A stretch of 64,000 nucleotides of DNA, from positions 1-64,000 of the forward strand of contig DATIBR010000180.1 in NCBI GenBank assembly GCA_035457425.1. The letters run 5' to 3'. Below are positions 59,244 to 60,614 of this stretch, one piece after another. Within the stretch, counting starts at the first letter, position 1. Every line of letters begins with the position of its first letter. This DNA is from Terriglobales bacterium (GTDB taxonomy: Bacteria; Acidobacteriota; Terriglobia; Terriglobales; Acidobacteriaceae). Under the pieces are notes generated by a model. It searched no databases and was not told the origin of the DNA. It worked only from the letters and a program-made list of their open reading frames with translations. Made by a program: the position numbers and the translations under genes.

Positions 59244-59951
59244 CTACTTGTGGCTTTTCTCCGCGCCGCTCATCGCCGGCGTTGCTGCGCCTTCGTAAGA
59301 ATCGATCGAGATGAGGAACGCGTTGCGGTCGGAGTAGTCGAACTGGTGGCCCATGACGTCCGCGGTGTGGTTCATGGACTTGTACATCCAAAACCCGCTG
59401 TTGTTCTGCGCGCCGAAGTAGTTCACGTTTTTCAGCACGACGCCCTTGCCGTCCATGCCAGGCTCGCGCTTCAGCTTCATGTGCGCCATCTGACCGCCGC
59501 CGAGCTTGGCTTCGACCACGTCGCCGCCGAAGTTCGTGATCTCGATGGGTGCCTCCTGCACCTTCAGCTCGGACCACTCCAGCCCGTACGTCTTCAAGAT
59601 CATCGGCGCCAGGGCATCGCGCTGCTCCTTGGTGGTGGCGGGGTCGAAGGAGACGACGACCCACGCGCCCTTCTTGTCGGTGCCCCACTTGTCGCCGAGA
59701 TCGCCGGTGATCCAGTACTTGGCGCCGGCCAGGTTGGTCTTGCCGTTGTGGCCCTCGCGCACCTTCACCGCCATGTTGAATTCGCAGGTCGGGTGCTCGG
59801 CGTGTTTGTTGAAGTAGCACGGGCAGAACAGGTGGCAGGAACAGGCTTCCACGTAGTCGGCTTTCATCCGCCACGCCGGGCCGGCCGGCTTCGCAGCCAT
59901 TAGGGCGATGACCGCGACCAACAGGAAAGAGATGCGTGCCAGGCGATTCAT
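59244..59951 (-). CDS. Exported DUF1326-domain protein
   Basis: A 235-residue protein with a signal peptide (MNRLARISFLLVAVIALMAA) and a DUF1326 domain. The ACSCHLFCPCYF stretch is the diagnostic Cys-rich motif and could bind metal or be redox-active. Function of the family is unknown. The gene is alone on its strand, 53 bases from the end of the candidate selenoprotein gene and with the same orientation, so a joint transcript is possible. Confidence 0.85.
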   Translation of the reverse strand: MNRLARISFLLVAVIALMAAKPAGPAWRMKADYVEACSCHLFCPCYFNKHAEHPTCEFNMAVKVREGHNGKTNLAGAKYWITGDLGDKWGTDKKGAWVVVSFDPATTKEQRDALAPMILKTYGLEWSELKVQEAPIEITNFGGDVVEAKLGGGQMAHMKLKREPGMDGKGVVLKNVNYFGAQNNSGFWMYKSMNHTADVMGHQFDYSDRNAFLISIDSYEGAATPAMSGAEKSHK

Positions 59952-60004: not shown

Positions 60005-60532
60005 TCAGGGGATGGCGGCCAGCACATCCGACACCAGCGCATTGTCGCTAAAAGTCCGGCTGACGTACGCGAACAGGTCGCGGTCGCCGGGCGCAAAAAT
60101 GAAACTGGCGCCGAGCTGGAACGGGTCCTGGCCCAGCTTATGCTGGAGATACCCGGCGGCCTTCGCGCGCTTGCGGGCCTTCGCGTTGTCGCCCCGGAGC
60201 AGGTGGAGGATGTTGGCCTTGCGCAGGTCGGCGGCCCGGTAGGCCGCGCGCTGGTCGTCGAGGAGGAGAGGAAAGGTGATACCGGTCTCTTCGCGAAAGA
60301 GGCGGGCGTAGTTCGCGTCGCCCAGGCCGATCGCGGCGAGGTTAGCGCCCTTGGCGGTGAACTCGGGTTGGTGCGCGCGCAACTGCGCGACGTGCTCGCG
60401 ACAGAAGATTCAGCCGTAATGCCGCAGAAAGACGACCACCGCCGGGCGGTCGGCCCAGAGCGACCCCAGCCGGACAGTTTTACCGTCGGGATCGGGCAGC
60501 GTAATGCCCGCGAGCCTGGCCGCGAGGGACAT
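60005..60532 (-). CDS. Peroxiredoxin-like (AhpC/TSA_2) protein with in-frame UGA, candidate selenoprotein
   Basis: A 175-residue frame if UGA codon 41 (60410-60412) is read as selenocysteine. The sequence around it is VVVFLRHYG-U-IFCREHVAQL; family members have Cys here in a C-x-x-C site, so the gene keeps U-x-x-C with Cys44. The frame is intact on both sides and resembles the SelU/PRXL2 group. The ATG at 60532 has GGAGA upstream. A hairpin (60373-60392) with loop AGTT begins 17 bases after the UGA, its loop 25 bases from it, compatible with a bacterial SECIS. The alternative is a nonsense mutation or sequencing error. Confidence 0.72.
60373..60392 (-). promoter_or_regulatory. Putative bacterial SECIS hairpin
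   Basis: On the minus strand CGTCGCGC-AGTT-GCGCGCG can fold into a 7-bp stem with one bulged T and a four-base loop whose second base is G. The loop lies 25 bases after the UGA. GC-rich DNA forms such stems easily, so this is only supportive. Confidence 0.4.
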
Positions 60533-60614
60533 CGGGCGATTCTCCGGCCGCGTTCGGCCGCTGTCAACGCGGCAGGCAATCGACAAGGCTGCGGCGACTG
60601 TTTATCCTGTCCAG

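Follow-up and report, generated by a model that had tools for sequence, protein, structure and literature searches.

An in-frame active-site UGA, almost certainly decoded as selenocysteine, in a PRXL2/SelL-related redox protein of a Terriglobales bacterium

The minus strand of a 64,000-nucleotide stretch of a Terriglobales genome, referred to here as the window, carries a peroxiredoxin-like gene with a TGA within its frame, which raises the question of whether this codon marks a damaged gene or specifies an amino acid at the active site. Translation from 60532 to 60005 yields 40 codons, the TGA, 134 further codons, and a TGA stop. The product begins MSLAARLAGITLPDPDGKTVRLGSLWADRPAVVVFLRHYG-TGA-IFCREHVAQL..., and the active-site motif around the UGA is RHYG-U-IF-C-REH (on the forward strand the complement of the codon appears as tca at 60410-60412). 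Comparative sequence evidence indicates that codon 41 is almost certainly read as selenocysteine (Sec), and the 60005-60532 gene is a well-supported addition to an already known selenoprotein type. Coordinates of the features discussed below are collected in Table 1.

Table 1. Features of the selenoprotein locus, with positions in the window.
Feature	Position	Strand	Basis
Selenoprotein gene, UxxC, PRXL2/SelL-related redox protein, 175 aa	60005..60532	-	translation, NF040769, PF13911
Gene ends: start ATG at 60532; stop TGA at 60007-60005		-	start: relatives and promoter spacing
In-frame UGA, codon 41, Sec reading; aligns with Cys44 of human PGFS	60410..60412	-	
TGT codon 44 (Cys), second residue of UxxC; aligns with Cys47 of human PGFS	60401..60403	-	
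Sigma-70-like promoter TTGACA-17-GAGAAT, ending 6 nt before ATG	60539..60567	-	consensus match
Bacterial SECIS core CGCGC-AGUU-GCGCG (predicted), bases 24-37 from the T of UGA	60376..60389	-	frozen synonymous codons, covariation

The protein matched the NCBIfam model NF040769, "SelL-related redox protein", over its full length at 120.2 bits from the ATG start and at 119.7 bits with an upstream extension; with a cut-off of 120, this makes the pass borderline. Close relatives exceed the same cut-off by 6-10 bits. Pfam AhpC-TSA_2 (PF13911) scored 56.6 bits against a cut-off of 27, and the PF00578 cut-off was also passed, although PF13911 gave the best score. An AlphaFold2 model built with Cys in place of Sec (mean pLDDT 95, pTM 0.91) predicts a PRXL2-type thioredoxin fold, for which the best PDB match was human prostamide/PGF synthase (PGFS, PRXL2B; PDB 9us9/9usa), with a TM score of 0.80 on the query and 24% identity, followed by ResA and then by PrxQ/AhpE peroxiredoxins. 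A phmmer alignment matched Sec41 to Cys44 of PGFS and the bacterial Cys44 to Cys47, the two human residues that are mutated in 9usa. The two proteins share the fold and both redox positions, but the human enzyme has Cys-x-x-Cys, whereas the bacterial protein has UxxC and a SECIS inside its coding sequence. PGFS was the nearest solved protein by both sequence and fold, bearing out an early comparison of this gene with SelU/PRXL2 proteins.

The fold, the family matches, and the absence of the peroxidatic signature PxxxTxxC together point to a Sec-Cys couple acting via a selenenyl-sulfide as the likely mechanism. Sec41-x-x-Cys44 would be the catalytic pair, with the selenolate attacking a peroxide-type or disulfide substrate, Cys44 resolving the attack product as a selenenyl-sulfide bond, and thioredoxin or a similar donor reducing that bond. 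Chemistry, substrate, and electron donor are proposed on the basis of the motif, the fold, and human PGFS. It is possible, if somewhat improbable, that the selenoprotein is a thiol-disulfide oxidoreductase of the ResA/TlpA kind and not a peroxide or endoperoxide reductase: UxxC resembles the thioredoxin motif, ResA structures rank high in the fold search, and the classical peroxiredoxin signature PxxxTxxC/U is absent from the sequence FLRHYGUIFC, in which H takes the place of T at the third position before U. Against this, PGFS, an endoperoxide reductase, is the solved protein nearest to it in both sequence and fold, and the N-terminus does not, on inspection, resemble a signal peptide, unlike that of ResA.

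Evidence that the TGA is part of a functional gene came from its relatives. By tblastn, all close relatives (55-78% identical) have TGA at the codon-41 column. They make up a 23-sequence group from Acidobacteriota and Myxococcota metagenome-assembled genomes, all with TGA, and in the tree these 23 Sec sequences form one clade with support of 100/99, Myxococcota members included. In distant relatives, which come from Chloroflexota, Planctomycetota, and a single Acidobacteriota genome, the codon is TGC (Cys). The 44 copies retrieved, including a few obtained twice, derive from dozens of genomes that were assembled separately; the column reads TGA in 41 of them and TGC in 3. The initial annotation, made from the sequence of the window, had placed the UGA at the first Cys of a C-x-x-C motif and looked to homologues for Cys/Sec exchange; the exchange occurs at exactly this one column, where the TGC of distant homologues and Cys44 of human PGFS align. 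Also found were three distant Acidobacteriota relatives (L086, L087, and L088) with two in-frame TGA codons, which group together on a separate branch of the tree; there the codon 44 column, the second residue of UxxC, is itself TGA, giving UxxU as in SelL. We do not claim a direction for the Sec/Cys change, because branches in the tree are long and it lacks a reliable root.

The frame itself is constrained on both sides of the codon. Compared with 22 relatives, the rates of difference at codon positions 1, 2, and 3 were 0.28, 0.20, and 0.61 upstream of the UGA and 0.23, 0.18, and 0.48 downstream of it, and because differences concentrate at third positions on either side, both halves of the gene appear to be under coding constraint. 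The translation and these rates agree with the earlier placement of the UGA at codon 41 of a clean frame. Another expectation, that automatic annotation would truncate the gene at an internal ATG, held only in part: a downstream open reading frame is present, but the longest one in frame starts not at an ATG but at a TTG (60382; 125 aa), and this is the portion that a conventional caller would retain. Without a selenoprotein model, a gene caller would cut such genes short and miss the active site; an NCBIfam model for this family already exists.

A second line of comparative evidence lies just 3' of the UGA, where the initial annotation had proposed a hairpin at SECIS distance. Bacterial SECIS elements are described as having a small, guanosine-containing apical loop (PMC1088965), and the hairpin has such a loop; with the T of UGA as base 1, the loop G is base 30. 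Downstream of the UGA, the five codons +7 to +11 are synonymously frozen among 17 distinct Sec sequences (GTC 14/14, GCG 17/17, CAG 17/17, TTG 16/17, and CGC 16/17), which happens almost nowhere else in the gene; the background frequency is 0.28 for the Ala codon GCG at +8 and, among Leu codons elsewhere in the genes, 0.12 for TTG at +10. Two-sided changes were seen in three of seven stem pairs across 17 distinct sequences; none of 500 shuffles reached the covariation score, and every slid register fell below it. Distant Sec members retain the hairpin with altered stems, for example GCGGUGC-AGGU-GCAUCGC in L084, with the exception of L078, in which no clear hairpin was seen at the SECIS position; in the three Cys forms it is not retained. 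In this GC-rich region, single-sequence folding energy did not stand above shuffles (z from -1.05 to +0.89 in five sequences) and is uninformative. Support for the hairpin therefore comes from sequence comparison and not from energetics, and on the comparative evidence of frozen codons and covariation the hairpin is real.

These observations bear on the possibility that a TGC or TGT codon became TGA through sequencing or assembly error, or in a decaying pseudogene. Single-base errors do occur in draft assemblies, and this one comprises 192 contigs, but this explanation is extremely improbable and was ruled out by conservation of the TGA across genera: the same codon recurs in independent assemblies from many genera, coding constraint persists downstream of it, and the synonymous freeze is confined to the hairpin. 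With TGA in 41 of the 44 copies and TGC in the other 3, the codon is genuine, as had been proposed.

The source genome (3.14 Mb; estimated completeness 96%) encodes the means to read UGA as Sec. The initial annotation had tied its reading to the presence of selA, selB, selD, and tRNA-Sec, and all four were found: selA at 563 bits; selB at 337 bits, in an open reading frame that reaches a contig end, with C-terminal residues beyond the assembled sequence; selD at 373 bits, with an in-frame TGA of its own (...AAKAAG-U-ASKLSP...); and a tRNA-Sec with a UCA anticodon, detected with Rfam as well as with ARAGORN. A long near-perfect direct repeat (CCCTGACAAGAGAACGGGTGAGCGCG...; L092 1-235, G000:C92) immediately precedes the tRNA-Sec gene. 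Among 396 sampled Acidobacteriota genomes, with relatives counted at E below 1e-25, 22 genomes had a relative, 21 of them a Sec form and one a Cys form. All 21 Sec-form genomes contain selA, compared with 252 of the 396 overall (Fisher p 8e-5, phylogeny ignored), and no selA match was found in G425, the sole Cys-form genome of the sample. Genome-wide reassignment of UGA to Trp, Gly, or Cys would also leave the frame open, whatever residue TGA stood for, but its probability is negligible because this very gene, like half of the clade (11/22), uses TGA as its stop codon, and because the full Sec machinery is present; the Cys form in a genome without selA also argues against it.

In light of these results it seems highly probable that the gene encodes a PRXL2 (SelU/SelL-related, AhpC-TSA_2) selenoprotein with Sec41-x-x-Cys44 as its catalytic couple. 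SelB with Sec-tRNA-Sec would insert Sec at UGA codon 41, directed by the hairpin inside the coding sequence, for which the support is comparative.

Many relatives have a promoter similar to the one upstream of this gene, in which 6-11 nt separate the end of the -10 box from the start codon; the mean best match in relatives was 8.3/12 compared with 6.2 in shuffles, although a consensus match is not proof of function. A longer N-terminus from a TTG at -58 was considered less likely because the ATG position is common to relatives and lies directly after the promoter. With this spacing, transcription would be expected to begin at the ATG or close by, so that the selenoprotein mRNA is probably leaderless, a modest curiosity if borne out. 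A more elaborate picture, in which a UxxC PRXL2/SelL-related clade, patchy in Acidobacteriota and Myxococcota, combines leaderless mRNA with endoperoxide or lipid-peroxide reductase activity and the nearby UxxU branch records a UxxC-UxxU step, is tentative and, taken as a whole, unlikely.

SelL itself has the motif UxxU, which was not found in this gene, where the second residue is Cys (TGT); the gene matches NF040769 over its full length, and the Acidobacteriota/Myxococcota clade is UxxC. Bacterial "Prx-like thiol:disulfide oxidoreductase" selenoproteins with UxxC or UxxU have been described (PMC1794560, PMC2398784, PMC13188914) and resemble this protein in their Prx-like fold and UxxC motif, but are set apart by family filing, being placed under PF00578, whereas the gene here scores best with PF13911. 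An AhpC/TSA family selenoprotein (PF13911/cd02970; PMC9312934, PMC13188914) belongs to the same Pfam family and has Sec at the first redox position, but in a UxxS motif instead of UxxC. Classical Sec peroxiredoxins (TxxU) share the peroxiredoxin-like fold and Sec at the nucleophilic position, but have PxxxTxxU where this protein has HYGU. In the open literature, subscription papers being outside the search, we found no description of the Acidobacteriota/Myxococcota UxxC clade, and nothing on NF040769 or "SelL-related". UxxC, UxxU, and CxxC forms of one enzyme thus occur naturally within the alignment, and the Sec/Cys exchange is testable because a Cys form occurs in a genome without selA.

A comparison of gene neighborhoods found no conserved neighbor beyond the genus that would point to a functional partner. 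Directly downstream on the same strand (59244-59951) is a DUF1326 protein whose N-terminal part is rich in Cys (EACSCHLFCPC); this neighbor seems to be retained in the same-genus locus L021 and in none of the others. The same genome has a second UxxC peroxiredoxin-like gene (L090; G000:C75, about 910-1390) with a TGA at 1048 in the context YRGYW-U-PFC; its product has a membrane-type N-terminus, and CUCCGC-AGGUUC-GCGGAG follows the TGA at bacterial SECIS distance. Genomes of the same class contain many other AhpC/TSA or ResA-like matches with a single in-frame TGA, such as RGYW-U-PFC, which suggests an abundance of Prx-like selenoproteins in Acidobacteriota.
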